Source: Obelidium mucronatum (lineage: Eukaryota; Chytridiomycota; Chytridiomycetes; Chytridiales; Chytriomycetaceae). From it: DNA of 64,000 nt. The notes under the pieces were generated by a model that saw nothing but the letters and a program-made list of their open reading frames with translations, did not search any database and was not told the DNA's origin. The position numbers and the translations under genes were made by a program. Numbering within the stretch: position 1 is the stretch's first letter; each line of letters starts with the position of its first letter. The stretch is from positions 88,576 through 152,575 of the forward strand of contig JAIVFH010000084.1 of NCBI GenBank assembly GCA_025765595.1, in the 5' to 3' direction. This document shows, in pieces, positions 1 through 42,695 of this stretch.

Positions 1-26
1 TTCGTCTCATTTTTTTTGACAATTAG

Positions 27-1922
27 TGATGGAAGCCGTTATCGCAAAGCATCTCCAAGCCGTCAACAGTGTCCCTGGCGTTTCAATGTCAAGCATTCCC
101 ATCCAATCAGGCACTGTCTTGGTTTTCAGTGAATCAAGAGCCGTATCAAACAACATGCAGCGATGGAGGGTAAATATAAAATGTTAAAAATTTGGTGTTG
201 TCTGGGCTGACTCTCCCCTTGACTTTTCTCGTATCACACTCTTATTTTTTGTTGACTCTTATTTTATGTGACAGGACTCAAAACGATGGTCGCCTTCACG
301 ACCACAAGGTCCTTTTTTATTGTACAGGTATGTTGCTGTTGTGGTGGTGAGTAATGTAGAAACGTGTCTAATTTTTTTTTTACACAGAGAAGTAGAACCA
401 AAACTTTTGGCCTCCGAAAGCACAAACTTGGAATTGGAAACAAGTACACGGTTTGTGAATCTGTCGCTTCGAGGAAATAGGCGGTTTGTCTTGAATGGAT
501 TGGCAAAGAGAACGATCGGATTGACTGGAAGTGATGGAAACAAGTACAGGTGAATATCAGACTCTTCACTTAAAAAATACGCCAAAAAAGAGCTAAAACT
601 CGGTTTTATCTTTACTTAGAATTATAAATTATTTCTACCCGAATGATGTGGAGTCTATTTATGAGCGCGAAAACAACAACAGCAATAGTAGCAGCAGCGC
701 ATCAAAACCGCTAATTACTGGATTATGTCGACCTGGAGAAGTCAAAGAGTTTGAGCAGTATTATGCCACTGTCGAGGCACTCTTCAAAGACCTAGGCGGT
801 CCTCCCTTGCGACGATATGGACCCAACGGAGTGAAACCAGCAGCAACTCAGCAAGGGCCACAAAAGAAAAAAGCCGGAAAAAAGAGGAGAAGGGACAAAT
901 CGTCGAGTTTGAGCGACTATTCATCAGAACTTGAGGTTGAAGAGGATGAGACGCCAAAAAAGAAAAGCGCCAAGTCTCCCAAAAAGACTTCGAGTCCAAA
1001 CAGACTGGCTGTTTCCACATCGCCTTTTGGAAGCGAGGGATCAGTTTCGATGCAGCAGCAGATCCAGCAGCAATGGAGTCCGATTTCTTTGGGTTTCAAG
1101 AATGGTTTGCCGAGCATGTTGGATTCGCCCATCCAGTTTCCACAGCTTCAAAATCAATCGCAGAATAATATCTCATTAAAAAGTCCTGCTAGTTATAGTG
1201 TCCAAGTTCAGCCTTCTCCAGAACGTAACGAGTTTGAACATCAACAACGCGTCTTGTTTCGTCAGCAACAAGTGCAGTTGCAATATCAATCAAAACCGCA
1301 AGCTTCAATGAGGCAAGAAGAAAATATATTTATTCGCCAGACCCAGCAAACGTCTGTTCAAGAGCTTTGGAGAAGTGAATCACGACGGTTACTTCAGCAA
1401 CAACAGCAGCAGCAAAAACAACCCGTCTACTTTCGCCAAAACCAACAACAGCAGCAAAATCGGCAATATATAGCAGATCCCATCTTTTACCGGGAGCCAG
1501 CACCGCAATTACAAATCAATAAGCCGCCGCCTCCTCTGTCCATACAACCGAACCCTTTGACGCAACCTATTCCTCAAAAAACAGTTATTTCAAACAACGA
1601 AGTATTCAATGCGCACTACAACATGGCTCTGTCTGGCCCATCTACGACATCCAATATCCAACAATCTGGAACGAGCGGTGTAAGCACTTCAAGGGAAGTC
1701 ACGCAACTGATTCACCAAGAACAGCAATTCATGACGCGGGAAAACAAATACCACCCGATATTCCAGATTGAACAGGTGCTCCAGCAAAGACTGGCTTCGC
1801 CGCCTCCGTGTCCTTGTGGTGGTTTGGGTGTGCGAAGACCGCATGATTTCTTTAAGAATGACAGGGATTGGACAGAGAAACCAGTGTGGTTGGCAGCCTT
1901 TGCGTGCTGTTGCTGTTGTTGA
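27..1922 (+). CDS. WOPR-domain regulator W1 (5' end outside window)
   Basis: Putative sequence-specific DNA-binding regulator of the Wor1/Pac2/Gti1 family, expected to act in the nucleus. Visible exons are 27-169, 275-327, 388-549 and 620-1922, with GT-AG introns that keep frame. The first visible exon starts inside the first WOPR half (MEAVIAKHLQAV, then QSGTVLVF, MQRWR). The next encodes WSPSRPQGPFLLYR, the third NGLAKRTIGLTGSDGNKYR, and the last INYFYPNDV followed by a long Gln/Ser-rich tail with several poly-Q runs. The tail ends in the array's shared module, CPCGGLGVRRPHDFF then W..PVWL. After that the frame runs into Ala-Phe-Ala and five Cys before the stop. A neighbouring frame would read PLRAV at this point, so a one-base shift near 1890-1900 is possible. 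The left boundary of the gene is not seen. Confidence 0.85.
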
Positions 1923-2132
1923 AGCGGCTGACAATCACGGTCATGGAGGATGGATGGGTTTACTGGTAGACTAGAATATAGATAATATATATAAAGATAC
2001 ACCTTACGATGGCTTTTGATTTATTGTTTCACAATTGAGGGTTATCGGGAAGTGTCGGAACTCTTTTCTTTTCGTTGGGGAAAAAAGACATTTTTTTTGG
2101 AGTGCACCACCATCACCAACACCATTGGCTGA

Positions 2133-3609
2133 ATGATCTTCGACAGCATTTCGATTCCATCCGAAGTCCCAACGGCTTCAGTCATTCCTCATCAACTGCA
2201 GCAACAGCTCCAGCAAGTGCAGCTCCAACAGCAGCAGCAGCAGCAGAGACCCCAGTCCCGAAGATTCACTGAAACTTGGAAGGGCTTCATCAAAGACCCC
2301 ACCGATGCTTCGCTGATTATCGAGGCGTGCATTGCAAACATGCTGCAGCCACTCAACATCATCCCAATGTCTCTCTCGGATTTGCAGATTCGGTCAGGGA
2401 CTGTGTTGGTGTTTGCTGAAAACAGCTCTATGGGACAGATGGTTCGATGGCGGGATGGATGCAGATGGAGTGCGAGTAGGTTGCAGGGTCCATTCCTGTT
2501 GTATCGGTATGTTGGGTTTATCTAAAAATCTTTTGAGTTTGAGAACCCTAACATTACTTATCTTTTCTTCGTTATGTCGTTTAGTGAAGTTGAAGCGTCG
2601 AATTCAAATGCTAGTTCTGCTTCTGCCGAACCTGAGCGTGATGTGCGGTTCGTGAATACTGTTGTGAGGGGAAAGACAAAGTTTGTCACGAATGGAATGG
2701 CGAAGCGGACGCTGACGTTAACTGGTTCTGATGGAAACAGATACAGGTTTGTTTAACTGTTTTTAGTTGCTCCTTTTTCGGCTTGTTTTTGGTGTCAAAC
2801 TAACTCTTTCTCCCACGATAACAGAGTCATCAGTTACTTCTATCCATCCGATGTTGGTCACTTGTACGGAGATGCAGTTCCTGCCGATAAAACTCCGAAT
2901 TTGGCGACACCTTCGCAGCTGCCTGAATTTGCTCGATTCACGAATAAGGTCATAGTGCCTGCATACACTATGCCGGATCTTTCCAACAATGCATTTGAAC
3001 CGATCTACATCTGGTTCAAACTTGGTCTCGCTGGTAGCAGCCGCAGCAGCCGCAGCAGCCGATAGTTCATCAGTATCTTCATCTTCATCGTCGTGCTGTC
3101 CTCGTCATCCACTTCATCGCGGCAAGTGATGGATTCGCCTCGAAATCAACGTGTACAGAGTCATGCAAGAGTGAATGACCAGCGACCATTGTATCACCAC
3201 CACCAGCAACAAAGGCCAACTCCATATCCTTCACCCCACCAACCATCGTACAACAACTACAACAATAGCAGCGATAGCAATAAGCAGACAGAAACTCGTA
3301 TTGTTCGCGAAGAAGAGAAAAACGCAGATGCATTCCACCATCCCTATTTTCCAAATCCAACAACGGAATCCACAGTCGGCTTCATCAGCGAACCTCTCTG
3401 AAAGCCACGAATCTTGCTCACGGACCAAAAACTTGAGTGCAACTGCATCGTCATCCTCTTTAGCATCTTCATCCTCCTCTTCTTGTAGCTGTGGTGGGCT
3501 GGGAATCAGGAAAGCGGCAGACTACTTTCGAAGTGACCCGTTTTGGACAGAGTTTCCAGTGACTCTTGCACCTATTAAAGAAAAGAAGATGAATGGAGCG
3601 GAGTTATGA
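2133..3609 (+). pseudogene. WOPR-domain gene W2, frame-broken in its C-terminal half
   Basis: Exons 2133-2506, 2585-2746 and 2825 onward give a well-conserved WOPR domain: GFIKDPTDASLIIEAC, IRSGTVLVFAENS, VRWRDGCRWSASR, GPFLLYR, then NGMAKRTLTLTGSDGNRYR and VISYFYPSDV. ATG 2133 precedes a Gln-rich leader. The frame used by the last exon stops at 3063-3065. Natural-looking Ser/Ala-rich coding continues in a second frame (about 2990-3100), a third (3093-3390) and finally the frame holding CSCGGLGIRKAADYF and W..FPVTLAPI (about 3484-3580). At least three one-base shifts are needed to join these. No intron with usable signals restores the frame. Either the copy is recently decayed or the assembly has indels here. 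Confidence 0.75.
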
Positions 3610-3874
3610 TATGAGCCATTTTTGGAGGGTGCTTCAAGTATGCTTGTTAGAAGTCGGTGTTATCTTGGTTTTTCCTTTTTTTTTCTGATGTAAAGTGGGG
3701 GGATTCGAATTCGAATATAAACATTGATTGTACTAGTGCTATATTTATTGCCTGTTGCAACACGTGGAACGGAACTCCACAAAGTCAGCTTCCGTTCCGA
3801 TGTCGGAAAGATGATTGACAAAAAATCACAAAAAATTTCTGTTGTGGAAGAGGTCAATCTCCTCCCTTTTGTCA

Positions 3875-5393
3875 ATGTTCCAAGAAATGGCATCCAGCTC
3901 CGCTATTGGCACCATCGGAAGGGCGATGGATCCCCTAGAGCAACTTTTGATGGCTGCAAAGCTGCAAGAACAGCAACAACTGCCTACAGTGTGGTATCCA
4001 AAAGCCTCCTCAACTGGATCTCCAATCAACGAAGAACATCGTGCCCTGCTCATCAACAGCAGAAACAACACTATAGGACAAACGAATCAATCAATATCCG
4101 CACCTCCTGAATCCCACCTCCTACTCATCACATCCAAGGCTCCTGTCACCATATCTCAAATAGCAGCAAGCGGAAGCCTCTTCAACTCCCGACAAGAAGA
4201 AACCTTCCATGGATTCATCAAAGACCCCATTGATGCTGCCATTCTTGCTGAAGCTGTCATTGCTAATCTGCTGAAACCATTCCGTGTAACGGAAACAGTA
4301 TCGCACTTGCTGATTGGTCATGGTACTGTCGTGGTGCTCGAGCCGGAAGCCATTCAATCAAGTGAACTGGTGTTTTGTAAGGTGGGGAAAAGCTTGGCTA
4401 GTGCTTGTGTCCAGAAACATGGAAACGGAGTGATATGGGACTGTATGAAAAACAGACACAAGTCATGTGACTGACGCCTCTTGCGTTTATTTTGATATCT
4501 CATTCTTCGTTCTAATTGCTGTTCAATCTGTATATATAGGAAGGGGGAAGGTGGTCTTTTGCTTTCAAGCAAGGGCTTATTCTCAATCTATCGCGAAGTG
4601 GAACCAACTGTAAATAACAACTATGACTCGAGCCAGTCACGGCATCATCCACAAACGAAACAACTGCAACCTAAACTTGTGCCGAATGGTCTCTGTAAAA
4701 AAGTCATCACAGTGATTGGAAGTGACACTCGGTCCTATTGTATAGTCTCGTACTTTCGAGCAAAAGACGTTGCTCACCATTACGGTGATTCTCCAATACT
4801 AAAAAGGAATTCGGTTCTGGACTCATCCTGCAATACTATCTCTTCCGTCCCGGGTCTCGCAATTACAGCATTTGGTCGCTCGTGTTCACCAAAACTATTC
4901 CAATAGTGGATGGGTTGTCGAGTTGCCGAAACCTGACTTTAAACCGCAGGTGATGCAGGACGTCCATCCGACTTGTTTGTTTGTGGATTCGTCAAGGACT
5001 TCTGTGTGGGGAAAACAGGAAGTGGAGGATGTGGATCAGGATGGCGATGAAGTGATGAGATTTCCCAATCCAGAATTGGCAATCCAGCAGCAATATCATC
5101 GACTATTTCAATCGTCTTCAAAAGATGGAATGGAGCAAAGGCTTCGTTGTTCCTGTCGTCGGGTTGTTCGTAGAGATGAATGGGATTCGAAGCTTCCTAT
5201 TCTGCCGCCGCTCTGGAGTGGAAATCGGCTATTAAGTGGCGTCAGAGGAGTTAACAGAAACCATCATAAAATGTCATTGCATACGGCGCTGGATGATCAG
5301 GAATATCAGGGCCAGCGAAGGAGGAACTGTCCAGTTCACCATGGATCGAGCTCTTCGCCAGCGCCACATTGCGAATACCGATTCTTCAAATAG
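3875..5393 (+). pseudogene. WOPR-domain gene W3, decayed copy
   Basis: Starts at ATG 3875 or 3887. The first exon (to about 4381) contains ETFHGFIKDPIDAAILAEA and a degraded HGTVVVLEPEA segment, and the usual RWR is replaced. After an intron the exon at 4540 begins EGGRWSFAFKQG, the equivalent of DGxxWSxSRxxG. The YREVEPT that should follow is one frame away, so there is a lesion near 4575-4590. WOPR second half continues as VPNGLCKKVITVIGSD..IVSYFRAKDVAHHY. Between about 4800 and 4830 the frame shifts again before LSLPSRVSQLQHLVARV. The tail keeps a remnant of the C-terminal module (CSCRRVVRRDEWDSKLPILPPL, near 5150-5214). Two independent shifts plus lost core residues argue for genuine decay. 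Confidence 0.75.
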
Positions 5394-5978: not shown

Positions 5979-7547
5979 ATGATTGCCCATCGAAACACTC
6001 CACCGCACGACTCCTCCGCAGCAGCTAGAGCCTCAGAGGGTGCATCTCCAAGTCTTCGGGAAGGTTCAGTGTTTAGTTCCGGTTCTGGTGGCCCAGAGCT
6101 TGCAGACTCTACTTTAGTGCATGAGCCAAACTCAACTTTGATTGAGACCTTCTATGGTAAGGAGAGCTTTGCTTCTTCAATCCCAAGAGTACGTTTTTTT
6201 CGCTAACCAGCGGGATTCTAATTTCCAAAAGGGTTCGTGCAAGACAAGTGTGACGCCTACATTCTCGTTGAGGCATGCGTCCAAGGACTCTTGGATCCAA
6301 TCATTAACTTGCCTTTGATTGTCTCTGGGTTGTCCATTCGGTCCGGCAGTGTAATCATCTTCCCTGAGCGGAAGGATCAAGTCCAGCAGTCGAGATGGAG
6401 AGTAAGTATCTTAAATTCTGTCCCTTTTTCTTTTGATCCTCATGAATCGATTAAAGAGGTGGTGGTGGTGTTTTGGGAGGATGAGGTTTAAGGGTCGACT
6501 TGCTGCAGTGCTTAGATCAAGATCATTTGCGACACACAACTCACTCTCATTTTTTATTTTAGGACGGAGGACAATGGAGTGCTTCTCGTATCTCTGGCGC
6601 TTTCTTACTGTACAGGTGTGCGAACTCTCGCTTTGTTGTCATCAACCAACTCAATTTTTTCTCTTGGACGAGTCACTAATTTTTTTTTAATTTAAAACAG
6701 AGAGATCGAAAGCATTGGAAAAGGAATCAGTAAACACCAACGCCATGGACAAGAAGCAGGCTCCATGTTTGGCACGAAGTTGCGTCCAAACACCCGGTTT
6801 CCAAACGGTCTCACACTCAACAGACCTGATACCAACGAGAGAACCGATTCCGAAATGTTTTCAACAACTTCTCTCCGCCAAAACACTCGGTTAATTAACA
6901 ACGGAATGGCGAAACGGACAATCTCTCTGACTGGATCAGATGGAAACCGATACCGCGTCATTTCATACTTTTACCCATCAGATGTTGAGCATTTGTACAA
7001 GAAACAAGATCCGATTGGAGGCAGAACTCCAGAAACTTTGAACACGCCATCGCAAATGCCGGAATTTGAGCATCTGTTGCATCAGTTTTCAAAGTCGGGA
7101 AGCAGACGTCGCGTTCTTGCTCCCCAGAGACCTGTAGCTACTCAAGAAGCGTCGAGTTCGCAGATTCAGCAGAAATTGCACCTCCAGCAAAGCCAAGAAA
7201 CTGCGTTGGCATTAATGTCACTTTTCGGAACTCCATCACCAACGACTGCCCCGACCCCCGCACGAATGACAACGCCACCACCGTTTCAACAGCCACCAAT
7301 TGTTCAATCTCGATACCACTCAACACCGGTTATTCTCTCTTCAGGCGCCTTCACAAGAAATCAACAAACTCTGCCCATCTCTGCAGTGCTGCCACCACTT
7401 ACTCCACCGCAACTTCTACCGCGATCTCATTCGCAAAACTGTAGTTGCGGTTGTAGTAAACTGGAAATCAGGAAGCACTTCAGCTATTTGTCTCAGTTTC
7501 CAGAATGGGCGAGTCATCCTGTGATTCTTGCTCCATTAAGGCAATAG
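5979..7547 (+). CDS. WOPR-domain regulator W4, complete
   Basis: Exons 5979-6156, 6232-6401, 6563-6615 and 6701-7547 give 415 residues with all phases consistent. The three introns occupy the family's common sites: within the ETFYG glycine, after RWR, and within LYR. WOPR first half lies at about residues 55-135 (FVQDKCDAYILVEAC, IRSGSVIIF, DGGQWSASR, GAFLLYREIE). A linker of about 55 residues follows. The second half is at about 190-237 (NGMAKRTISLTGSDGNRYRV, ISYFYPSDVEHLY). The Pro/Gln/Thr-rich tail closes with CSCGCSKLEIRKHFSYL and W..HPVILAPLRQ. Likely nuclear transcription regulator; targets unknown. Confidence 0.9.
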
Positions 7548-8047: not shown

Positions 8048-9240
8048 ATGCATGTTGTACCAGCCCATCATCTAAATTTCCGGGCTCCTTTGGCGGTGAT
8101 ACAGTCTCCACCAGAGAGCATGCCAAACAGCCCCGTCAACCCTGAACCTCCAACGCCAACACCGACGACTATCAGAGCTGCTGAACCCCCTGCCATCTTC
8201 TCAATTCCCTCATCCCATCACGCTCCATCTGCTGTACTCCCATGCCAACAATCGAACTCCGGTGGTCTTTCATGGTCATGTCTTGACAGAATTAGACGCA
8301 GCTTTGCTGGTTGAGGCTTGCGTCCACTGGGGATATGGCCGCGCTCAACAGTGGAAACACAATGCACAGCATCACAAGCATGAGGATCAAGAGCGGCATG
8401 TGTGTCGTGTTTCAAGAACGGGTCGAGGAGGGGATGCTTCGTACGCTTTCGAGATCAATTGAATTGGAGTTCAAGCCGAATCCAAGGGCCGTTCTTGTTG
8501 TATAGGTAAAAAAAAAAACGATAAGATGTCTATCTTCATATATATTTTTTACATTCTTAACGGTTTCAATGGTTTCGTTTGATAGGGAGGTTGAGCGCGG
8601 CAGAGATACAAGTGGTATTCCCAACCCGGAACCACATGGAGGTCGTTTTGGAAACACTCTGATCCGAGGAGATTACCATCACGTCCACCATGGTCTTGCC
8701 AAGCGCACAATATCCGTTGTAGGCTCAAATAGGTGCAAGTACCGTGTCATATCATACTTTTATCCACGCGATGTGGCTTACTTGTATGGCGAAGCCCCAG
8801 CATCAGGTCCAATGGCTTCGGCGAAACTCATGTTAAAAGCTGTCTCTGAATTGCCAGCAGTTTGAAAAGTTTCTTGGGTCGGCTGGAAAGTTGGTTGCAA
8901 TCGCCAAAGGAAGTCGTTGCTTGCCATCCTCCAATCGCCCAGCTGCCCCACCATCGCCCCCTAAAAGTACAAGTTCCGTTGCCACATCTAGTTTCAATGC
9001 TAGCTCTTTAGCGCTTCCATATAGCGCTCAAGAAAAACAAGCGCGTCTTCATGATAGTCCAGCAACGCGTTTTTGATGGCCCGTTTTCTCCAACGTTCCA
9101 TCCGTATGGTATGACCAGTCAGACACATTGCCGCATCTCAAAGAGAAAAAAAGTGTGGCTGCTTGGAATCGCGGAACCATCGTGATACAATCCATTGGAG
9201 AAAGCGAGAATGGGAGAGAGTGGTTCCTGAATTACCAGTT
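8048..9240 (+). pseudogene. WOPR-domain gene W5, heavily frameshifted sister of W6
   Basis: Recognisable WOPR pieces occur in order but in shifting frames. FHGHVLTELDAALLVEAC is at 8264-8305. GDMAALNSG..RIKSGMCVVFQE is one frame over (8325-8430). WSSSRIQGPFLLY is in a further frame (8465-8507). Then an intron and a clean exon from about 8585 give REVE..NTLIRGDYHHVHHGLAKRTISVVGS and VISYFYPRDV. A single extra base near 8855 (LPaVQ instead of LPQFEKFL) breaks that exon, and a final shift precedes a degraded WFLN.PVL C-terminus near 9220. The FHGH..TELDA and CVVFQE wording is shared only with W6, the next gene, so the two are a tandem duplicate pair of which this one died. Confidence 0.8.
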
Positions 9241-9301
9241 TTACGCCGCTTTTGAAATATTTGTGCGTTTTCCCCTTCCTAGTTGTAATACCTTTATCAT
9301 G

Positions 9302-9843: not shown

Positions 9844-10932
9844 ATGAACTCTCCCGCCTTCCAATCTCACGGCTCTTCGAGCGCAGGTCGCCCTCCAGCC
9901 ACTTTCCACGGCCACATTAGAACCGAGCTTGACGCAAAAGTGTTGATCGAAGCGTGCATAGCCGGAGAAATGGCAGTCCTCAACACTTCAAAAGTACCGC
10001 CGCGAGTAACAATCACAAGTGGCACTTGCGTCGTGTTTCAAGAAGGAGTCTCTAATGGAATGCTTCAGCGATGGAGGGACGGTTTATTGTGGAGCTCAAG
10101 CAGGATTCAAGGCTCGTTTCTTTTATATCGGTACCCCACTTTCTTGTATTTTTTTGCCTCCCTAACACATATCCGACGTAGGGAAGTCAAGCCAGTAGAT
10201 GACATTAAAAGCCCGATTCCAAAACATGCAAAAGAGCCATCAAGCTCCCCCTTCTCAAACACAATCGTTCGAGGAAACTACAAACATGTTCCCAACGGCT
10301 TTGCGAAACGAACCATCACTCTCGAGGGATCCAACGGGAAAAAATACCGTGTTATCTGCTACTTTTATCCGAAACACGTGGCCCATTTGTATGAAGGATT
10401 AGCTCCATCTGATGGAAATGCAGATGTCTTGTTGACTTGTCCTTCCGAAACACCTCAGTTTGCAAAATTTCTCCCGCCACCCCCACATGTACCACTGGAG
10501 CCCCCGCAGCAACAGCAGCCGCAGCCGCAGCCGCAGGAGCAGGAGCCGCAGTCGAATCAGCAGTTTGGATTGCCATTTGGCGATAACGGCTTCGAAGATC
10601 AAGATTGGCAAGGGTCGAGTTCCTTGCAGACAGGCGGTTCTTATCCTTACCCCCCGATGAACTACACGCAGTCTGAATACCCCCCTCACCCTGTCTTTAA
10701 TCATCAGCAGCCATGGGAAAGTGCTAGCTACCATCGGCAGGATAGTCAAATGCAACAACAGCCGTACTATGAGCACCAAGCATACTACTATACTCCCTAT
10801 TACAGCGGCATGCGCATGGAATGCCCTTGCGGTGGGCTGGGCTCTAAAAAGCATACCGACGCTGGATGGGACGTTGGCTGGGAGAACTCGGGAGTTATCC
10901 TACCGCCAATTAAGAGGCAGACGCAGACTTAA
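9844..10932 (+). CDS. WOPR-domain regulator W6, complete
   Basis: Starts at ATG 9844. The proposed exons 9844-10130 and 10182-10932 give 345 residues. The 51-nt intron (GTACCC...CGTAG) sits at the usual LYR site and removes YPTFLYFFASL-type residues that no paralog has. Its length is a multiple of three without a stop, so retention would give a 362-residue isoform. WOPR first half is FHGHIRTELDAKVLIEACIAG, TITSGTCVVFQEG, LQRWRDGLLWSSSR, GSFLLYREVK. The second half is NTIVRGNYKHVPNGFAKRTITLEGSNGKKYRV split over the linker, then CYFYPKHVAHLY. A Pro/Gln tail ends in CPCGGLGSKKHTDAGWDV and W..SGVILPPI. Confidence 0.88.
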   Translation: MNSPAFQSHGSSSAGRPPATFHGHIRTELDAKVLIEACIAGEMAVLNTSKVPPRVTITSGTCVVFQEGVSNGMLQRWRDGLLWSSSRIQGSFLLYRYPTFLYFFASLTHIRRREVKPVDDIKSPIPKHAKEPSSSPFSNTIVRGNYKHVPNGFAKRTITLEGSNGKKYRVICYFYPKHVAHLYEGLAPSDGNADVLLTCPSETPQFAKFLPPPPHVPLEPPQQQQPQPQPQEQEPQSNQQFGLPFGDNGFEDQDWQGSSSLQTGGSYPYPPMNYTQSEYPPHPVFNHQQPWESASYHRQDSQMQQQPYYEHQAYYYTPYYSGMRMECPCGGLGSKKHTDAGWDVGWENSGVILPPIKRQTQT

Positions 10933-25545: not shown

Positions 25546-26387
25546 ATGGCTCAGTTCAACTACCAGCCGCCGCCGCAACAATCGTATCCGTACGAAGCAA
25601 GTGGATTACCGCTGGCTACTCAGAGCGGAAACCAGTCTCAGCCAAGCGGATCATGGCACAACCACCACCACCAGCGGCAGCAGCCTATCACTCCCCAATA
25701 CCCCCCCTCCCAGACTCACTATGCTCCTCAGGGCCACACTGGTCACCACCAAAGTTCATCCAATCAGTCGAGTAGCTCGCATCTGTCGCAGCAGCAACCT
25801 CACGCCACTGCCAATGCTCGCTTCTATCCTCCCCAGCAACATTCGACCCCTCAACCAACTCAGCCGACTTCGAGCCAGCAATCAGAGACGTTCTATGGGT
25901 GAGTTTTTGTCGATAGAAGGAGGACATTTATTTTATATGGGGAGATGGATCCTGAAACCCGGCCTGGGAGACTTTATCAGCTTTTAATTGATAAGACTTA
26001 ACTTACTGATACCAAACAAAAAAAAACCCCCCACCACAGATTCGTCAAGGACGAAATAGACGCCAAAATCCTCATTGAAGCGTGCGTAAACAAGGAACTG
26101 CCATTAATCCCCGACATCCCATGCGGCGGGGAAGGTGCCTCCTCAGGAAAAGTCTACGTCTTTTGTGAATCAAGCTCACAGATTTTGAAGATGCGGTGGC
26201 GGGATGGTTTGCATTGGTCGAGTTCGCGGATTTCGGGGAATTTTTTGTTGTATCGGGAAGTAGAGTCGACGGATGTTCCGACGAATGTACAACGGGCGCA
26301 GGAGAAGGAGGCTACGGCGCTGTTTACGACGAGTAGTTTGAGGCCTTATACTCGATTGATACCCAATGGTGAGGGCTTTTGGATTTC

Positions 26388-26418
<31 letters not shown>

Positions 26419-27037
26419 CGATCGGAGGCTAAATTTCTATATGTTCAGGATTGGCAAAACGGACGATTAGTTTAACAGGATCCGATGGCCTTCGTTATAG
26501 GTAATTAGATTGTGTCACTCGAGGCGAACTACCCTAACTTTTTTTTCTATACACAGAGTCATCAACTACTTTTACCCAAAGTTTGTTGAACATCATTACG
26601 CGCCTCCAAATCTTCGACAAATCTTTGACCCGAATGCTCGCGGTATGCTTCAGATGCCGTCTCAGGTGCCGCACCTCCAAAAATACAATACCAGCAGTCA
26701 ACCGGCAACAAAATCGAATTCTACAGCTGGCGCAGCAACATCATCAAATATACAATCAGATTCAATGGAAACCCTTGCGCCTCAATCCCACGCCATGCGA
26801 AACAGTCCCCAAAACACTGCCATCAGGCTACCGCCGCTGGAAAATAACAGGAGTCAAACATCACAGTATTTACCAGTTCGACCAGATGTCCAGCAACAGC
26901 ACTTTCATCAACATCAGCCTTTATATCCAGGAATAAGAGAACTATCCAAGGCGTTCGAGGGGAATCCGAATTGGGCAGAGTCGCCTGTTATATTGGCGCC
27001 GCTGCTCCTACAAGGAGTGAAGTGGGGAGATCGATAG
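25546..27037 (+). CDS. WOPR-domain regulator W12, complete
   Basis: Exons 25546-25898, 26040-26368, 26449-26500 and 26557-27037 give 404 residues. A His/Gln/Ser-rich leader of about 112 residues precedes ETFYG. Core: FVKDEIDAKILIEAC, GKVYVFCESS, KMRWRDGLHWSSSR, NFLLYREVE, SLRPYTRLIPNG, LAKRTISLTGSDGLRYR, INYFYPKFVEHHY. Introns lie at the ETFYG and RYR sites plus a private one inside IPNG-LAKRT, which contains an uninterrupted run of 30 T. The tail lacks CxCGG but keeps W..SPVILAPL. Confidence 0.87.
26389..26418. repeat. Poly-T tract of 30 bases inside the second intron of W12
   Basis: Uninterrupted T homopolymer lying 30 bases upstream of the 3' splice site at 26448. Such a tract is slippage-prone, so its true length may differ from the assembly. 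Confidence 0.9.
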
Positions 27038-27445: not shown

Positions 27446-28662
27446 ATGACCATCGACACAACAAACGCACCAAAAGAAACCTGGTTTGGTTTCGTCAAGG
27501 ACCGAACAGATGCATTGCTCCTGATCAATGCTTGCTACTCGGGAACCCTTCAACCAATTACACTACCGTTTAATTCAATGTGCCTTCGGATCAGAAGTGG
27601 TTCCGTGGTGGTTACGGTTCAAAAGAATGACAATCAAAACTACTGTTTCAGATGGAGAGACAACCTTCATTGGACTGCTTCCAAGCTCACGGATAACTTT
27701 ATGCTCTATGTATGTATATTTCGTTATTATATTTTTGCACGTGCGGAATGATACTTTATGACGTATCCGACCGTGTTAATTCCTCATACCATCCCATGGA
27801 ACTAAAACATTATCTGTATTCTTTTCTTCAGCGCCAAGTCCTTCATGTCAACCAGAAGGTCAAGTCACGCCAAAATACAATCAACAAATCCTGCCGATTC
27901 CACAATGGAAGTCTTCGCAGCAAGTCCGAGCTAATCGCCGACGGCCTTGCCAAGCGGTCATGGGGAACCGTTGGACCCGATGGCTTCTACTACCGCGTCA
28001 CCCACTACTTTTACCCGGACCATGTCGAGCATTTTTATAATGGCGGGGAAAAGAGTGCATCTGCACCTGCCTTCCAGCGGCCGTGTGATATTCCCATGTT
28101 TGAGCAGTACAAGGAAATCGCGGCTGAGCAGTTTCGTGTTTTGGAGTCCAAGCCGGCGTCGCCAAAACAGAAGGAGCTTGCCTTGCCGGCAGAAGCTGTC
28201 GCTTTTGAACCTGTTGTTGCAAAGTACAACGGGTCTGTTGTTCCACAGCCACCACCACCACCACAACAACAACGGGTCGATGCTGATGAGCAAAGACGCG
28301 GTTCAGTTGCTTCCTTGAAAAGTGCCTCTACAACCAAGGCCAGCAAAGCTGTTCCAAAGAGGCTGCAACAGGCAAAGCAGGTTATTCCACTTGAGCACGT
28401 GACGCGTCATGAAAGCATTCACCACCAACGCCAACAACAACCAACCTACCACCCCCAAGCTCAACCATCTCATCAACGGCACAGCCAACACTACCAGCAA
28501 TCACATTCCTTCTACAGCCATTCAACACAATCTTCATCACATCATAGCCATTCCAAAACGTGCGGATGCGGGCCTCTGCCGTCTTTGTTGCGTAGCATCG
28601 ACCGATTCCCACGGTTTGATGAGCGTAGCCTTATTTTACCGCCGTTGAGAGTTGTGGCGTGA
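27446..28662 (+). CDS. WOPR-domain regulator W13, complete
   Basis: Exons 27446-27709 and 27832-28662 give 364 residues. First half: ETWFGFVKDRTDALLLINAC, LRIRSGSVVVTVQKN, CFRWRDNLHWTASK, NFMLYRQV. The single intron sits between Tyr and Arg of LYR in phase 0, a site also seen in W15. Second half: LIADGLAKRSWGTVGPDGFYYRV, HYFYPDHVEHFY. The tail is rich in Gln, His and Ser. It ends CGCGPLPSLLRSI, then RSLILPPL, a variant of the array's C-terminal module in which the Trp is replaced. Confidence 0.86.
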
Positions 28663-29197: not shown

Positions 29198-30281
29198 ATG
29201 ACTAACAATGCCAACATGAGACCGGCACCCCAGCGGTTGACCACGCAACCAAACTACGACTTTGAAACTTTCTACGGTAAATATGCTTTAATTTGGGTGT
29301 TGCTCTCCCACACTATCAAAATAAAAAGGTGGTTCTTTCCTTTGTTAAATGACTCGTGTGTTTTTTTCTTTACAGGATGGATTCAAAATCGGGCTGATGC
29401 GTTCTTGGTTATTGAAGCTTGTGTTACGGGAATGTTGCATCCTGTCATGCCCTATATGCATACAAGCACTGAAATCCGAAGCGGATCAGTTGTAGTCTTT
29501 ACGCAACGGTCGACGGATGTCAACTCGATTCGATGGAGGGTGAGTGAGGAAAAATAACGAGGGGCGACCAAATTTCGAGTTAACCTGTAAACAAAAAAAA
29601 CAGGATGGTCGAAATTGGACAACTTCAAAGCTTTCGGAAAACTTTTTGCTGTACAGAGAGACGGAGCCGAAAGGAAGTCCGTATCGTGGCCCGGAAACCT
29701 GTGCACTCTTTCCTGCTGGAAGCCTGAGACCCAACACTCAATTGGTCCCTGATGGAATGTGCAAACGGACAATGTGAAATAATTATGATATATATAGACT
29801 ATATATGTTGTTCTAATCTCCCTCTTTTTTTTGGTCTAGAACTTTGACTGGGAGCGATGGCTTGAGATATCGTGTGATAAGCTACTTTAAACCCAAAGAC
29901 GTTGAGCATCGCGTTTCAAGAAAACGAGCAACTCTAGGCCTTGGATTGAAAACTCCTTCGGAATTACACGAATTTGATGAAATCAAGCGGGTTTTAGCTT
30001 CAAGGGACCAGATTCTTTCAAATTCGCCAAACAACCAATTAGATTCAAGCACGTCCCCAAATTCAAGACTGCCAGGAATATCTGCTTTAATTAAGGAGAA
30101 TTCAATGCCTGAGACACTATATAGGATGCGGTATCAAGGCAGGTTGGAAACGTTTGGTTGTAGTTGCGGTGGACTTGGCGGGCTTCATCCATTTGATTAC
30201 TTCCGTCGAGATCCGTCTTGGCTCAATGAACCGGTTATTCTTGCCCCTTTGTGGGTGACGCACTATTTTTTAAAGAATTAG
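29198..30281 (+). CDS. WOPR-domain regulator W14, complete
   Basis: Exons 29198-29276, 29376-29539, 29604-29773 and 29840-30281 give 284 residues. Introns are at the ETFYG and RWR sites and inside KRT-I; the last is otherwise found only in W9. Core: GWIQNRADAFLVIEAC, EIRSGSVVVFTQRS, IRWRDGRNWTTSK, NFLLYRETE, SLRPNTQLVPDGMCKRT, LTGSDGLRYRV, SYFKPKDVEH. The C-terminal module is one of the clearest: CSCGGLGGLHPFDYF, then W..EPVILAPL. Confidence 0.88.
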
Positions 30282-30658: not shown

Positions 30659-31757
30659 ATGCCGGCGAACGACTCTGAATCCTTGATACAGCCCGGCACC
30701 ATACAGCAGAGTGGGTTGCTAGAACTTGAAGCGTTCAAAAAAGCAGAGACTTCAACATCCTACCCTCCAAGTCCGGAGCATACAAACGATTGCCGGATTG
30801 AGACGTTTTTTGGCTTTGTTAAGGACAGTTTCGATGCGAAACTTGTGGTTGAAGCATGTGTGCAAGGTCTGGCCTCCTTTTTCCACTTGCGACTGTTCTT
30901 AACACTGAATTGCAAATAGGCTTATTGAAAACGATCCAACAGATTCCTTCTGGGATATCCCCGAAAATTCGATCAGGAACGACTGTAGTTATTCAAGATC
31001 AGATTGGGAATACTGGATGGAGGGATGGCCGAAACTGGAGCTGTTCCACACAAGAGCGGGATGCTGATGGGTTCCAGTTATACGTGAGTCGAAAACGAAA
31101 AGCAGATTACCTGGAACTAATCATTGTCAAAATCAGCGGGAAGTAGAATCAGACACACTTCCTTCAAACCATCGAGGACGACCGATGAGACGAGAAAGGA
31201 GCCCTCTCTTCTCAGTAACCCATACTCGACCTGGATCTCGTCTCATTGTGAATGGGATGGCAAAAAGAATTATTCACATAACTGGCAGTGATAATTGCCG
31301 ATACAAGGTCATCAATTATTTTCATGTGTGCCATGTCCAACATTACTATCTGGTCGACAACAGCTCGGATTCTAAAACTCGGTATCGAGGTTCTGGCCCA
31401 TTGAGGACACCTACTGAACTCCCTGGATATTCAAAGATTCGAGCGGTGTTACTTTTGAATGGGGAACGGTTTCGGAAACCGTTTCCCATTTGTAAACGAG
31501 AAAAGAAGAAGGCAGTTGAACAAGTAACGGCAGCTATTGAAGTTTTGAAAGAAATCAGGCCAGTGAGGGTTTTGGCTGTAAATGAGTTGAAGGCTGAAAA
31601 AAGTGGAGGGCACCCTTTGGTCTTGAGATTTCAAGCAGAGGGGGCACGATATGGTGGAACGGGGATGCAACAAGCAATATCATTGTTTCAGCAAAACCCC
31701 GATTGGGCCGAAGCGCCAGTTCTCTTGCCACCTCTTGGCACAAGTGGCGATAGTTAA
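30659..31757 (+). CDS. WOPR-domain regulator W15, complete
   Basis: Exons 30659-30866, 30920-31083 and 31137-31757 give 330 residues. The first intron (53 nt, donor GTCTGG) is at a private site after EACVQ; the second is at the phase-0 LY-R site shared with W13. First half: ETFFGFVKDSFDAKLVVEAC, KIRSGTTVVIQDQ, TGWRDGRNWSCST, FQLYREVES. Second half: SRLIVNGMAKRIIHITGSDNCRYKV, NYFHVCHVQHYY. It shares RGSGPLRTPTE wording with W16 (RGPLQTPSE). The tail lacks CxCGG but ends W..APVLLPPL. Confidence 0.86.
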
Positions 31758-32001
31758 AAGTTGTACAAAAAAACGAGTTCGAATAAAGCATCAGTCCAAC
31801 CTTATTTCCGTCTGACAAACTCCTTTGAAACACTCTCGAAACTCGCAGGATTCAAATGTAAAATCACGAATGAATTTTCTCCAAATGACAAGTGGAGATG
31901 GCCACAAAAGCCCACTACGAAAAAGGAGGCAGAAAAATCGAGTCAACAAAAAATCGAATTTTGTGCCCTGTTGCCTTCTTTCGCTGATAACTGTCAAAGC
32001 A

Positions 32002-33266
32002 ATGCTCTCTCCAACACTGTCAACGCAAGCGGCTTCCTTTGACTTTGGAGTGAATATGGTCCAGTCGCCATTGGAGGCACTTTGTCCTGTCAGAGGGGTC
32101 GTGACCAGCCCTTCTAGGTCTGATGAGTTCAAACCCACATCGACAGCTGAACCAGTTCGTATCGAGACTTATTTTGGGTATGCACAGTCCCCCTTCGCAA
32201 TCTTAGCTCGTCTTAACCTTTTGCAATGCCACCAGATTTGTGGAAAAGACTGTCGATGCCTATTTTCTGGTCGAGGCCTGTGTTTCTGGAACTCTTCCCT
32301 GTGTCAGAGAACCAATTCGCCAGCCAATGCTTCCTGTGCGAAGTGGCAGTGTCATTGTATTCGAACTGACTGATAATGACAAGAAGATGAAATGGAATGT
32401 GCGTATACGATCACCACCCAAACAACTTCCAAATCTCCAAACTAAACATTATTCTCTGTTAATTATATAGGACGGAAAACAATGGTCCATTGCAACCAAG
32501 GAAGGCAGCTTTGTTTACACCAGGTACCATATTTGACATAATCTATTTATAATCATTCCAAAACTTGTTAACTGAAAAATGCCAATTAATAATCTCGAAA
32601 CAATACAGAGAGGTCGAACCAACCAATTCCAAAGTCCACGCACGAGCTACTCAGCGAGAAAAAAGCAATCTCTTTGTGTCATGCAAAGTGAGACCTGATA
32701 CCAAACTGATCCCCAACGGCCTTGTCCGCCGATGCATCTCCATGAATGGAAGCGATGGAAAACGATACCGAGTGCTGTCGTATTTTTACCCTTGCCATGT
32801 CCAGCAATTTTATGTGTCTGCGGGCAAGACCCGTTGGGGGCGTGGCCCTTTGCAGACCCCTTCTGAACAGCCGAAATTCGAGCGCTTCATTAAGCAATGG
32901 ATTGCCTTCAACTTTGCGAAAAAGCAAAAGCAAAAGATGGAGGACGAGTTGTCGCCTTTGCCGCCAAGTATTATCCCGCTTGATATGCGTGCTCCACAAC
33001 AGGGTGTGCCAGTGGATGATTGGGACCGTTTGGAGCAGTTGCAGAAAACTCAACCTCAAGAACAAGAGTGCATTAAAACTGTTGGTACTGTCGAGGCTGG
33101 TCCATTGACGCCATCTGTTTCTCCAGCGCATCAGAAACAAACAGAATCTTCATCGCGAAAGAGAACTTACTCTGTCATGAATGGAGCCGTTGATGGCATT
33201 CCTACACCCATTCAATCGCTCGATGCTGTTGATTCTTTACTGCTGCTTGCACAGCAATCTAATTGA
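32002..33266 (+). CDS. WOPR-domain regulator W16, variant-tail subgroup
   Basis: Exons 32002-32177, 32236-32398, 32471-32523 and 32609-33266 give 349 residues; ATG 32056 is an alternative start. The three introns occupy the ETYFG, RW(R/N) and YR sites. Core: FVEKTVDAYFLVEAC, LPVRSGSVIVFELT, KMKWNDGKQWSIATK, SFVYTREVE, KLIPNGLVRRCISMNGSDGKRYRV, SYFYPCHVQQFY. RWRDG is changed to KWNDG. The tail differs from upstream copies. KFERFIKQWIAF, DELSPLPPSIIPLD and PVDDWD replace the Cys/Trp module, as in W17 and W18. Confidence 0.86.
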
Positions 33267-33787: not shown

Positions 33788-34805
33788 ATGAACTATGCGG
33801 AATGGACTCATTGCAATCTTGAAAACGAATCATCATCAAGACATTACAATTTACCATATCAATATCCGGAGACTTTGGGCAAGCTTTCAGTACCGCCGCT
33901 TGAAGACACACCTTGTTTGAGTACCGAAACCTTCTTTGGGTAAACGTCACAGTTCTCTTGTTTAGTGATAGCAGGTGTCTTAAATTTTAAAATTCATGAA
34001 TCAGTCATGTTCACAATCGTATGGACTGTTATATTCTTGCTGAAGCTGTCGCTGCTGGTGTGCTCAAGCCTTATATGATGAATGTTGTTGTCAGACCAAA
34101 AAGTGGGAGTGTCTATGTTGTCGAACATGAGCAAGTGTTCAAGGTGATAAATTCACTGGCTTTAGAATGGCTTCAAAAACCAAATTTAGTCGTTATATCT
34201 ATTACACTTTCTAGGATGGTTGTGTATGGTCCAATGGAACGGTGACAGATTCATTCCTGACATTTCGGTAAGATACAGCAGTATTCGAGAATATGTGTTT
34301 CGATTTAATATGCTAATATAAAACAAAAATAAACAGGGAAGTCAAGAAAGATTGTCTTGAAAAGGAACAACGACGCACGAAAAAGCACGAAAGAGGGCTC
34401 GTTAAGCGAGTTCTTTCCATCACGGCATCAAACAATGAGACATATCAATTAGTTTCATACTTTTCTTTCAAAGATTTTCAGCTTTTGTATTCCAAGGAGA
34501 TGCGGGCGTCTTCCGTTTGTTCAAGGAGACTGCAGCGGCCATCTGGAATGCTTCAATACCAGCAGTTTATTGTTCAATGGACTCAATTCAAGAGAATGAA
34601 ATATATTCAGGATGCAATTCACGCTGAGCTGACTCCACTTCCGCCGAGCTTGTTGCCTTTCAATAATGGAGAGAGTCAATTTCCAGCTGATAACTGGGAT
34701 GGTGAGTCACCCAATGTCGAGAGATATTCCGACACTCTCGGTGACGTTGAATTACCAGAATCATTGATTCTACCTCCTAGCGCCTTACCTTTATGGAGTT
34801 CTTAG
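33788..34805 (+). CDS. WOPR-domain regulator W17, variant-tail subgroup
   Basis: Exons 33788-33939, 34005-34143, 34215-34267 and 34337-34805 give 270 residues with introns at the three common sites. The domain is divergent: ETFFGHVHNRMDCYILAEA, RPKSGSVYVVEHE, FKDGCVWSN, SFLTFREVK. The second half has lost the PNGLAKR wording (RGLVKRVLSITASNNETYQLV, SYFSFKDFQLLY). The tail has QYQQFIVQWTQF, AELTPLPPSLLPFN, ADNWD, and a second LPPSALPL. It is closest to W18; the two are probably a tandem pair. The phases close without error, so the copy looks functional despite divergence. Confidence 0.84.
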
Positions 34806-35115: not shown

Positions 35116-36345
35116 ATGGAAAACAACTGCCGCAAGAACACTGGCGCCAAGTTGGAATGCGGGGAAGTGGGCAGCACATCCATCCCACCGCTGCTGAGTC
35201 CTTGCACGGATTCAGATGTGGAGTCCAACAGCGGCATCTGCTTGAATGAAAGTGACTCTGCTCTGAACACTCAAGAGACCTTCTTTGGGTATGTTTTAAA
35301 ACACCAAAGAAGCTTATTCACCCAATGACTGTACTAACTTCAAACGTAGTTACGTAAGAGACACAGTCGACTGCTATATTCTTGTCGAAGCTGTCGTGGC
35401 TGGACTGCTGCGTCCATACACTGGTGCCAGCGGATCTGTCAGAAACGGAACTGTTCTGGTCATCCCGCTCGACTCTCGCCCAAACAAGTTTATGGTACGG
35501 TCGACATCTTCTTACTCCCTCGGGCTTAAATTTATTTATTTCTACAGGATCACCGCCAATGGTCCGCTGCAAAGACGCAAGGCAGCTTTAAAGTTACGAG
35601 GTGTGTGTGTGGGCAAAAATCACGTGAAATCGATAATCGGAAAATAATCTAAAAATCGAAAATTTCCTTCTTGATTTATAATTCAAATTAAAACAGAGAG
35701 GTCGAGGCCGTCAACACGTTCCGTCACTCGTCATCCGCAATTAAAACTCGACGCAATAGCTGTGCAGGTGTTCCCGGGGCTGTATTCCCCACATGTACGG
35801 CACGCTTTGGTACAAGAATCAAAGACCAAGGACTCATGAAGAAGTCTCTCTCCATGAATGGATCAGATGGTCATTTATACCGCGTTATTTCGTACTCATA
35901 TCCCAAAGATGTGGAACACTTCCACAAGCTCGAGCCTGCCACCAATCGCCTCTCCCACTTTTCGCCGCTCCAATGTCCTTCTCAAATCTGTCAATACCAG
36001 CAATTCATTACAAAATGGGTTCAATACAACAAGCTCCGGAAAATGCGCGAGCAGATTGAATCAGAGCTTGTTCCTCTTCCCCCAAGTGTTTTCCCTGTCG
36101 AGAATCTTGCACCGCAGCCTGAAGATAACTGGGAACTCTCTGTAACACCACGACCGGATCACTACTATCAACTGCAACAAGGCGAAAATGGGTTCATTAG
36201 TTTCGATGAAATGGACAGTTTGTTGCCCTTGTCGCTGCCACCAAGTATTTTGCCATTGAACCAGCCAAAGGAAGTTGCAGTGGAACAGATTCGACAAGCG
36301 CTGTTACGTGAACAACGAATCATGCAGCAGAATAATCAATTCTGA
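35116..36345 (+). CDS. WOPR-domain regulator W18, variant-tail subgroup
   Basis: Exons 35116-35288, 35350-35494, 35548-35600 and 35697-36345 give 339 residues with introns at the ETFFG, post-RW and YR sites. First half: GYVRDTVDCYILVEAVVAG, SVRNGTVLVIPLDS, FMDHRQWSAAKTQ, SFKVTREVE; RWRDG has become FMDH. Second half: RIKDQGLMKKSLSMNGSDGHLYRV, SYSYPKDVEHFH. The tail carries QYQQFITKWVQY, SELVPLPPSVFPVE, EDNWE and a second LPPSILPL near the end. It is the last of the twelve uninterrupted + strand copies and converges on SEC63. Confidence 0.85.
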
Positions 36346-39741: not shown

Positions 39742-41091
39742 ATGAATCACAACCATCATCAGAGTCTTCCACACTCTCGCAACAGTTGGCCTGCCGCACA
39801 AAACAGTGGTGCCAATCGAAACACTTATCAAATGCATTACCAAGAGCATGAATTAGCGGGTCCTTCATTTCAATCACAACAACCAAGCCACAATATCCAA
39901 GCCACACAAGTCCCCCACAGCACCATCCCCACTACCAACCCCACAGCAGCCCTACAATACCAACAAACCAGTTTCGGTTTCGTCAAAGACAAGGAAGACG
40001 CAATCCTGATTACCGAAGCCTGCGTCTCAGGAGCCCTGAAACCCGTCTCTGACCTGACAATGTCCACCTCGCTTCTAGCAATGCAAAGTGGAACCATCCT
40101 CGTGTTTGTTGAAAACAGTGAACAGATGCAGAAAATGCGATTCCGCGATGCTGGAGCGTGGTCATCTTCGCGCATCAGTGGTCCCTTCCTGTTGTACCGG
40201 CAAGTTGAAACCAGTGACAAGAAGAAAAATGATGTCATTTTGGCAGGGGAAAGGAGTAGTTTGTTTACTACCACTTCATTGCGGCCTTATACCAAGTTGA
40301 TTCCCCAACGGGCTTGCCAAACGGACGATTACTATTTCAGGGAGTGATGGGAATCGGTATCGAGTGATCAATTACTTTTACCCGAATGATGTGGAGGTGT
40401 TTTATAAACGGAGTAGTGCTGCGGGGCCGAGTAACCGGATGGCTGGGCAGGTTTTGCCGATTCCAAGTCTTCAGCCCGAGTTTGACCAGTATAAGCATTT
40501 GATTCCTGCTGGGCTTGGGTCTTCGTCATCGAGAGGTGGATCCAGGAAAAGCAGTCGCCAGAGTTCTCCAAGTGGGGCTGTGATGGGGATGGGTGCAGAT
40601 ATGAGTGAGTCTCCTACCGTATCTTCATTGGACTCTAGTGGTAGTGCATCACGAAGAGTGTCGTGGAAATTAAGTAACTCTTCGACTGGATACATGGCTA
40701 TTCAAGATTTGGTGCAAGTTGAACCACATCCACAACAAGCACCGCAACCAGTACATAACAATCCGTATTCCACCTCCGACTACCAAGCTCCTAGATCCCA
40801 CTCATACCCACCACCCTTCTGGATTCCTTCAACATCTCAAGCACATACACAAAACGCGCAGTCTCAATTCGTGTCAAGCGAAGGATCCTAGCCTGCATTC
40901 TGCGTTAATGGCAAACAGATATGATGTCCTGGGGCGAACTTTCGGAGCTACCAATACTGAGTGTACGGGAAATGGCTATTCAAGGAGGAGTCCCACATTG
41001 GTTGAATGAGCCCGCGATATTACCGCCGTTGCGTAATCTGAATGTAGTTGCCACAACCGGAATATATTCAGGATCATTTACGGAGGAATGA
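39742..41091 (+). pseudogene. WOPR-domain gene W19, frame-broken
   Basis: Intronless reading from ATG 39742. SFGFVKDKEDAILITEAC, MQSGTILVFVENS, MRFRDAGAWSSSR, GPFLLYRQVE and SLRPYTKLIP are intact. At 40302-40306 the sequence has CCCC where paralogs read one base less; the frame leaves NGLAKRTITISGSDGNRYRV and NYFYPNDV in the next frame. A second shift lies between about 40880 and 40965. The C-terminal PHWLNEPAILPPLR (near 41003-41035) sits in a third frame, which stops at about 41091. The first lesion is a homopolymer difference and could be an assembly error; the second is not obviously so. Confidence 0.75.
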
Positions 41092-41388
41092 GGATTGTGA
41101 TGATGATAGCGAGCGGTAGTCAGCTTTTTCAAGAAATAAAGTACTGATGAATATCCGCAATATTTACAACGAAATTGATTAGATGTGTTTTTAAAAAGAA
41201 TAAAGAGAAAACTTCAAAATTGAATTTTTTTTTCGCAAAAACTTCCCGAGTATTTACTTCAAGAAGTTCAACCAGAACAAGAAACGCTAATGACCTGCGT
41301 GGCGCCAGTCAATATTTAAAGAATATCCATTAAAAGGCCAAGACTTTTCGTTTTTTGGGTTGATAAGAAAAACAGTTAAAAAAATTTC

Positions 41389-42695
41389 ATGAGTCACTTT
41401 CGGAAGCAAGTAAGGTCCGGCAGCACAATTTTTCTAGGTTTTTCACTGCTTTTCAAAGCCTGCTCTATCAACTACAAGATAAAGCTCCCGAATCCTTGCA
41501 CACAGAGCAGTCTTGACACTCAGTGTCTGCTAATTAACAGCAAATGTTCCTTGACTCGAATACCTTCAAGCAGCCCGCAGAACAATTGGAAATGCCCTCC
41601 TTCCTTAATCTCCACCAGACACAAACATCGATTTCTGGAATGCCCCATTCACAATCAGCCCATCCACTATCAAATGCATACCGCAATATCTCCTAAACCA
41701 GGTCAGCACGAGCATCATCCCCAACAACAACGTCCAGAGGCAGTGCGACTTCAAACCGCCACCATCATCAGCCAACAACCCACAAACGATCCCAACGAAT
41801 TCGAAACCTTTTATGGATTCATCAAAACTCGGCAAGACGCAGAAACGATTGTAGAAGCCTGCGTGCAAGGCATCCTGCGGCCAATCCATGATTTATCAGT
41901 GAGCTGTGAGTTCAGCTGCCGATACGAAGTGGAACCGTGATTTGTTTTTCTGAGAGTTCAGCTGTGTCGGGGGTTGGTGTGGGGGAGTGTGGGCAGAAAA
42001 TGAGGTGGAGAGATGGCTTGAATTGGTCGTCGAGTAGAATATCGGGGCCGTTCTTGTTGTATAGACAAGTTGAATCGGTAGGATTCACGGTCACTGGCTG
42101 CTGTTGCAAGCAGCAGTGGCCGCAAAAGGTTCAAGAAAGGGATTCCCTTTTTTCAACGACTTCTTTAAGGGCCAATACGAGGGTTGTTGTGAATGGGTTG
42201 GCGAAGCGGACGATGGCGGTTGTGGCAAGCAATGGTGTTAAATACCGGATTATTAACTACTTTTATCCGTATGAAGTGGAGGAGCATTATTCTGAAAGGT
42301 TGGCTCGAGGGAGGGGAGCGGGATCGATTCTGAGGACGCCGTCTGAAGTGCCAGAGCTGAGTCGGTTGCAATTAGAATTAAGTGCTAATTATGCTGCTGC
42401 TGGACCTCAAGCTTCAAAAGGAGTGACAAAGAGTGAACGATTGAGCCCAAATGTGATTTCATCTCTTACTGAATCAGCAACGTCACCTGTATCATTGTCA
42501 AGTCCAAGTCCGTCTCCCCATTATTCATCTGGAATATCGCTCTGCCAGCGATTTGATGCGGTAGTCGTCCGCAACGGAGGCTATTCCATGCGGCCCATGA
42601 TCAACTATTTCCGGATGTATCCCAACTGGGCCGACTGTCCTGTCCGTCTTGCTCCGATAACACAACACCCTGGGAATCCACAACTCAACTTCTGA
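41389..42695 (+). pseudogene. WOPR-domain gene W20, one frame break
   Basis: The open frame begins at ATG 41389, with a later in-frame ATG at 41674. It gives ETFYGFIKTRQDAETIVEACVQG, then leaves frame near 41900-41918 just before LPIRSGTVICFSES, which is read in the next frame and stays open to 42695. KMRWRDGLNWSSSR, GPFLLYRQVE, VVNGLAKRTMAVVASNGVKYRI and NYFYPYEVEEHY follow without introns. The tail ends W..CPVRLAPI. The break is 17 nt that begins GTGAGC and ends TTCAG; removing it restores the frame, but it is far below normal intron length. A one- or two-base indel is the simpler reading. The core and tail are otherwise intact. Confidence 0.75.

Follow-up and report, generated by a model that had tools for sequence, protein, structure and literature searches.

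Here we analyzed a row of genes for WOPR regulators in the genome of the chytrid Obelidium mucronatum (Chytriomycetaceae, Chytridiales). The analysis was done on a stretch of 64,000 nucleotides, called the window below, which corresponds to positions 88576-152575 of contig C84 in an assembly of 48.3 Mb and 694 contigs. WOPR proteins (Wor1, Ryp1, Sge1, Mit1, Ros1) form the Gti1/Pac2 family and are master switches of cell form. The window carries 20 of their domains, all on the + strand, and belongs to a longer array of 27 copies. This array is probably an old and maintained cluster of the Chytriomycetaceae, made of paralogous and separately transcribed DNA-binding WOPR regulators. It is read as an old cluster that has been maintained, and not as a recent accident, because the copies have diverged and because related genera keep pieces of the row.

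Extent of the array and its second haplotype

A profile built from six seeds placed the 20 WOPR domains of the window between positions 23 and 42365, with the final stop codon at 42695, and gave no match above 5 bits in the window beyond 42.4 kb. The array continues to the left of the window with four copies on the + strand (U1-U4) and three on the - strand (U5-U7). The whole array thus has 27 copies over about 56 kb (approximately C84:75.7-131.3 kb), 24 of them on the + strand, and in the left flank (C84:48.6-75.7 kb) no WOPR match above 5 bits was found. The window copies scored 133-248 bits by a spliced aligner written for this analysis, as against at most 23 bits in 60 control stretches taken from positions 43.5-64 kb, the profile itself being built from these window copies. 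The independent Pfam profile PF09729 matched all the 27 spliced array copies, including the 20 of the window, at E 0.001 or lower, and its cut-off of 23.6 bits was exceeded by 10/10 copies in one subset of the scan. The two halves of the domain (WOPRa and WOPRb, near the N-terminus and joined by a variable linker) were spanned by the spliced alignments in 20/20 window copies; for W05 and W19 this is free of a broken frame only on a second haplotype, contig C174. The first-pass annotation had read 20 WOPR genes head to tail, which agrees with these results except that the array is larger, and its concern that a hidden Markov model might fail on most copies finds no echo in the PF09729 scan. It had also given every copy the full WOPR signature; both halves are indeed present in each, while the W[ST]xS[RK] loop is retained in 15/20 window copies and 19/27 array copies only.

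The alleles of C174 were used for W03, W05, W19, U1 and U7 in the trees, identities and Pfam scans (PF09729 included), for U6 also in the identities and loop counts, and for U5 also in the loop counts. C174 is 56.5 kb long, shows 94-95% identity to C84 and is colinear with it over 70.6-129.9 kb except for one insertion of 2.9 kb. It holds 26 of the 27 array copies in the same order and ends ahead of W20. The pairwise amino-acid identity among the 27 copies has a median of 39% and a maximum of 65% (351 pairs), with slightly higher values for adjacent copies, and the DNA of the first 42.7 kb has 10 self-matches of 30-104 bp each (E 0.001). The copies are therefore too diverged to be assembly repeats. 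That the assembler repeated one or two loci, a doubt already raised in the first-pass annotation, is almost certainly wrong: recognisable DNA similarity among the window copies does not extend beyond 104 bp, the haplotype contig gives the identical order, and orthologues are present in the assemblies of other species. What could be said for such an artefact is a contig (C274; L011) whose positions 1-4924 are a third copy of the W09-W11 block, at 95.5% identity and at 94.0% to C174, and abut at about 4912 a repeat which is 100% identical on C109 and C23; C274 may itself be chimeric. This third copy may be a segmental duplication, a third haplotype or the product of a chimeric contig.

The row is interrupted by two gaps (about 10.9-17.7 kb and 36.3-39.7 kb), which contain other reading frames and a transposon-like insertion. 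The insertion lies at 11909-14819 (2.9 kb), is absent from C174, and has inverted ends (CAGCGTCCCGA / TTCATGA) and a short flanking direct repeat. It encodes a frame of 620 amino acids with no Pfam match and has relatives of 69% on C16, C394 and C8, and it looks like a DNA transposon that is polymorphic between the haplotypes. The gap frames at 36590-38493 and 15833-16354, both on the - strand, gave weak matches below the cut-off, to DnaJ and Sec63 Brl (SEC63-like) and to a leucine-rich repeat. To the right of the array, a signal peptide peptidase (PF04258) is encoded on the - strand at 48834-50244.

Orthologues, gene order and age of the array

Homologues were collected from two profile searches (the best 120 of 134 matches, plus 67) and a search with W11, and 153 distinct proteins were kept. 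The searches are sensitive only to relatives that share short words. Among the matches listed, 146/153 come from seven genera, all of them Chytriomycetaceae, with one each from Dichomitus and Coemansia and five others. In a quick tree of 175 domains (178 rows, less the public Obelidium proteins repeating our models and the rows below 90 residues), 16/27 array copies fall in a clade with other genera that holds no other Obelidium copy, and the support of this clade is at least 80 in 11/16. This tree, like the second one, is of the quick type and carries a single support value. The approximately unbiased (AU) test rejects a single clade of the 27 copies (p 7.4e-44), and it does so also for a core of 19 copies that was chosen after the tree had been seen (p 3.3e-84); the test used 72 rows limited to Obelidium, Siphonaria, Podochytrium and two Rhizoclosmatium strains.

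The first-pass annotation had taken the array for a lineage-specific local expansion. Its lineage-specific part stands for the Chytriomycetaceae within the reach of the searches, and the part that made it a recent event in Obelidium fails on the AU test and on the orthologue clades. A recent tandem expansion of one WOPR gene in Obelidium alone would suit the placement of 24/27 copies on one strand in one row, the slightly greater similarity of neighbours, and the W16-W18 group, which clusters together in the tree and has no relative from another genus. We nevertheless find it hardly credible, given the median identity between copies, the rejection of one clade and the orthologue clades of the 16 copies.

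Pieces of the row were recognised in the neighbouring genera. The Siphonaria genes HDU68_008339, 8340, 8341 and 8342 correspond to W06, W05 (clade support 51), W02 and U1, and the Podochytrium genes HDU98_000566, 567 and 569 to W13 plus W14, W11 and W04. The Rhizoclosmatium globosum genes BCR33DRAFT_711219, 711221 and 711224 correspond to W08, W11 and W15, and at least four array copies (W05, W08, W11, W15) have relatives on one contig of this species; in Rhizoclosmatium JEL0117, HDU79_010508 and 10509 correspond to W14 and W15. HDU98_000566 (P0004, Podochytrium sp. JEL0797) is annotated as one protein of 510 amino acids carrying two WOPR domains, which are orthologues of W13 and W14; either the two genes are fused or the annotation has joined two separate genes. 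The relative order agrees in 15/16 pairs over five contigs of 2-4 genes (p 0.03 by shuffling) when this protein is counted once, and in 18/19 (p 0.008) or 17/19 (p 0.045) when it is split, depending on its direction. The order test assumes that locus-tag numbers follow the contig and that contigs of equal length are one and the same; BCR33DRAFT_845096 (another number series), HDU79_006186 (a further gene of the W08 type) and the Chytriomyces, Physocladia and Entophlyctis contigs were left out of it.

Selection was assessed from the ratio of nonsynonymous to synonymous substitution (dN/dS) in the domain between the haplotypes. It is at most 0.15 in 14/19 window copies that have an allele, some of the low values resting on few changes (W06: one). 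Higher values were obtained for W08 and W19 (0.23), W03 (0.33), W05 (0.72) and W17 (0.85), those of W03, W05 and W19 being affected by broken frames or unequal models, with W05 and W19 computed from the C84 models. U1-U7 gave 0.16-0.78, with unequal models in several, and the pooled ratio of nonsynonymous to synonymous polymorphism (pN/pS) is 0.31 over 23/26 allele pairs (W03, W05 and W19 left out).

Gene and protein anatomy

Nearly every gene of the row has its own introns. Over the 40 modelled genes, the 110 introns, of which a few are false, have a median length of 70 bp. Two positions are common, column 64 in phase 0 (20/40) and column 81 in phase 2 (21/40), and they are the same in array and dispersed copies, which argues for duplication at the DNA level from an intron-bearing ancestor. 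W06, the single copy that was modelled, is predicted to have the WOPR fold as in Wor1 and YHR177W and to be close to DNA-bound Wor1.

A C-terminal tail of the approximate form CPCGGLG...W...PVxLAPL was found in 14/20 window genes, at most 21 residues from the stop codon and with E of 0.04 or lower. The profile of the tail started from 16 tails of Obelidium genes, including 8 from the window, so that 6 of the 14 window genes were newly picked up by it. Among the matches listed, the tail is present in 77/153 homologues, and in 60/123 chytrid proteins outside Obelidium; none of 306 reversed or shuffled decoys has it. A fifteenth match in the window (60511-60549, E 0.32) is not in a WOPR gene, and the 26 matches (E 0.1) of a composite-tail search of the genome are confined to WOPR genes, namely those of the array, of its alleles, of C40/C122 or of C50. 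No Pfam family covers the tail at E 0.001 (21 members scanned). By a simple pattern it is absent from five copies on C86, the copy on C37 and two of the three on C40, and its profile has no match in the Dichomitus protein, the Coemansia protein or the five other homologues mentioned above. By eye, the loop-less W16-W18 (31870-36345) and U5-U6 have instead a common C-terminal motif, LPPSxxP.

From these features we infer the following course. An intron-bearing WOPR gene would have been duplicated in tandem again and again to build up the row, before the family diverged into its genera, and some local duplications would have followed later (W16-W18, perhaps U2-U4). Each gene would be transcribed individually and give a nuclear protein in which the N-terminal WOPR domain binds DNA and is followed by a variable low-complexity linker and the short Cys/Trp tail. 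The tail may bind a shared partner or a second paralogue, the copies may differ in the step of the zoospore-rhizoid-sporangium cycle at which they act, and copies without the WSxSR loop may bind other sites or compete with the remaining copies. The array may be a combinatorial switch, as the first-pass annotation proposed. A bolder version makes it a selector cluster of the Hox-like kind in a single-celled fungus. In this version the order would persist because position determines the time at which each copy is turned on along the cycle from zoospore to sporangium, the CPCGG...W tail would pair paralogues, and the loop-less W03, W15-W18 and U5-U7 would be built-in inhibitors; it is quite improbable.

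Several observations weigh against an old, maintained cluster of DNA-binding regulators. Eleven of the 27 array copies lack an orthologue clade in the 175-domain tree, and the support of such a clade is below 80 in 5/16. The evidence from gene order is modest, and one gene is discordant with it (HDU79_006182, which matches U4 yet has genes of the W02 and W08 types on its two sides). Selection seems to be relaxed, or decay to be under way, in U5-U7 and W17. The W[ST]xS[RK] loop is lost in eight copies (W03, W15-W18, U5-U7); the W15 orthologues in two Rhizoclosmatium retain it as WTSSK. Lastly, the core TTAAAGTTT, the Wor1-type core site, is absent from the window, with 0 observed against 0.48 expected in the upstream stretches. 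Wor1 acts in a simple autoregulatory loop, and with no canonical core in the window a loop of this kind has no support here; the absence bears on autoregulation and not on other targets.

Two further explanations draw on these points. The array may be a birth-and-death cluster kept mostly by inertia, in which few copies matter and the others are redundant and decaying. The degenerate look of U5-U7 and W17, the frames of W05 and W19 broken on one haplotype, the copies without orthologue clade and the transposon-like insertion within the row on one haplotype would all fit, but the low domain dN/dS of most window copies and the retention of orthologues across genera make this explanation rather unlikely. 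Alternatively, the copies may no longer be sequence-specific DNA binders, the WOPR fold being reused for example in protein scaffolding via the C-terminal tail. The loss of the loop from 8/27 copies points this way, as does so widely shared a tail, in view of the highly variable C-termini that PMC6243373 ascribes to this family. Since the loop is retained in 19/27 and W06 is predicted to lie close to DNA-bound Wor1, we consider it very unlikely. A maintained cluster of DNA-binding regulators is thus still the reading we prefer.

The genes of the window are collected in the table. The gene starts are the most upstream in-frame ATG, with upstream introns unchecked, and the C-terminal ends were extended in a single frame, the tails past another intron (W02, W05, W19, U1) being found by frame scanning. 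The C84 models of W05 and W19 span the broken frame via a short false intron.

Table. WOPR genes of the window, in window coordinates
Gene	Position	Strand	Remarks
W01, WOPR gene	1..1922	+	First exon left of the window, C84:88431; tail 1809-1898
W02, WOPR gene	2133..3609	+	Two introns within the domain; tail 3484-3576; orthologue clade with 7 other taxa
W03, divergent WOPR gene	3875..4906 (ends approximate)	+	WSxSR loop lost
W04, WOPR gene	5979..7547	+	Tail 7446-7538; Podochytrium orthologue HDU98_000569
W05, WOPR gene	8100..9255 (start approximate, no ATG found)	+	Frame broken on C84, open on C174; weak tail 9154-9219; Siphonaria relative HDU68_008340
W06, WOPR gene (public protein P0007)	9844..10932	+	Tail 10822-10911; Siphonaria orthologue HDU68_008339
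W07, divergent WOPR gene	17667..18500	+	No orthologue clade found
W08, WOPR gene	19045..20343	+	Tail 20242-20322; orthologue clade Rhizoclosmatium and Chytriomyces (support 76)
W09, WOPR gene	20973..22149	+	Tail 22015-22113
W10, WOPR gene	22609..23571	+	Tail 23413-23505
W11, intronless WOPR gene, 282 aa	24200..25048	+	Weak partial tail 24995-25039 (E 0.036); orthologues HDU98_000567, BCR33DRAFT_711221; nearest public proteins Obelidium mucronatum (100%, 80% of query), Podochytrium sp. JEL0797 (55%), Rhizoclosmatium globosum (51%)
W12, WOPR gene	25546..27037	+	Tail 26930-27004
W13, WOPR gene	27446..28662	+	Orthologue HDU98_000566, first domain
W14, WOPR gene	29198..30281	+	Tail 30159-30251; orthologues HDU98_000566 (second domain), HDU79_010508
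W15, WOPR gene	30659..31757	+	WSxSR loop altered; tail 31653-31736
W16, divergent WOPR gene	31870..33266	+	Loop altered; no tail; haplotype dN/dS 0.03
W17, divergent WOPR gene	33788..34805	+	Loop lost; dN/dS 0.85
W18, divergent WOPR gene	35116..36345	+	Loop altered; dN/dS 0.15
W19, WOPR gene	39742..41091	+	Frame broken on C84, open on C174; weak tail 40981-41031; Siphonaria orthologue HDU68_005432
W20, WOPR gene, last of the array	41389..42695	+	Tail 42576-42659

Copy number and comparison with known systems

Outside the array, 13 dispersed WOPR genes were modelled in a first set (five on C86, three on C40, two on C19 and one each on C37, C89 and C159), and two further proteins led to a second set of 7 (four on C50 and one each on C8, C163 and C2). 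With the 27 of the array and about 20 dispersed genes, the haploid genome has at least about 47 WOPR genes, near-identical copies on different contigs being counted once as presumed alleles. The five genes of C86 form a small second row (C86:54717-74164, L013-L015); they are all on the + strand, belong to a different subfamily (GLTKRT type) and have no C-terminal tail.

The first-pass annotation had given one to a few WOPR genes as usual for a fungal genome. Consistent with this, a passage of PMC4917244 gives two in most fungal genomes, and one of PMC6243373 describes them as paired in nearly all fungi studied. PMC10406608 counts Gti1/Pac2 with those transcription-factor families that changed most dynamically in early fungi, and a term search of its main text alone did not find 'tandem', Chytriomyces, Rhizoclosmatium or Obelidium. 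Public records annotate single genes of the array as Gti1/Pac2. No prior description of the array, of its age, of the number of copies or of the C-terminal tail was found in the literature searched. The WOPR domain and the dynamism of the family in early fungi are already known, and these four features appear to be new as far as that literature goes.

With its dozens of WOPR genes, this chytrid family provides a natural test case for the number of related switches that can control the life cycle of one single-celled organism, and the array bears on why transcription-factor genes remain clustered outside animals. A developmental transcriptome of R. globosum has been published (PMC8887899), in whose main text a term search did not find 'WOPR', 'Gti1' or 'transcription factor'. 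This species has relatives of the array, therefore the main prediction may be checkable with existing data.

In comparison with the WOPR family elsewhere, the Obelidium genes share the Pfam family, the two-part domain near the N-terminus and the predicted fold. They differ in number, with about 47 per haploid genome and 27 in one row against two in most fungi, and in their common C-terminal tail against the highly variable C-termini described elsewhere (passages of PMC4917244 and PMC6243373 for the numbers, and of PMC6243373 for the C-termini).

Two further likenesses are analogies. Animal Hox clusters are also rows of old paralogous regulators with an order partly preserved, here between genera; their domain is unrelated, and the order in the chytrids is known from fragments of 2-4 genes only. 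The arrays of KRAB zinc-finger genes in mammals are likewise tandem paralogous DNA-binding regulators with gain and loss, whereas in Obelidium the majority of the array copies belong to an orthologue clade shared with another genus, and purifying selection acts on most copies of the window.

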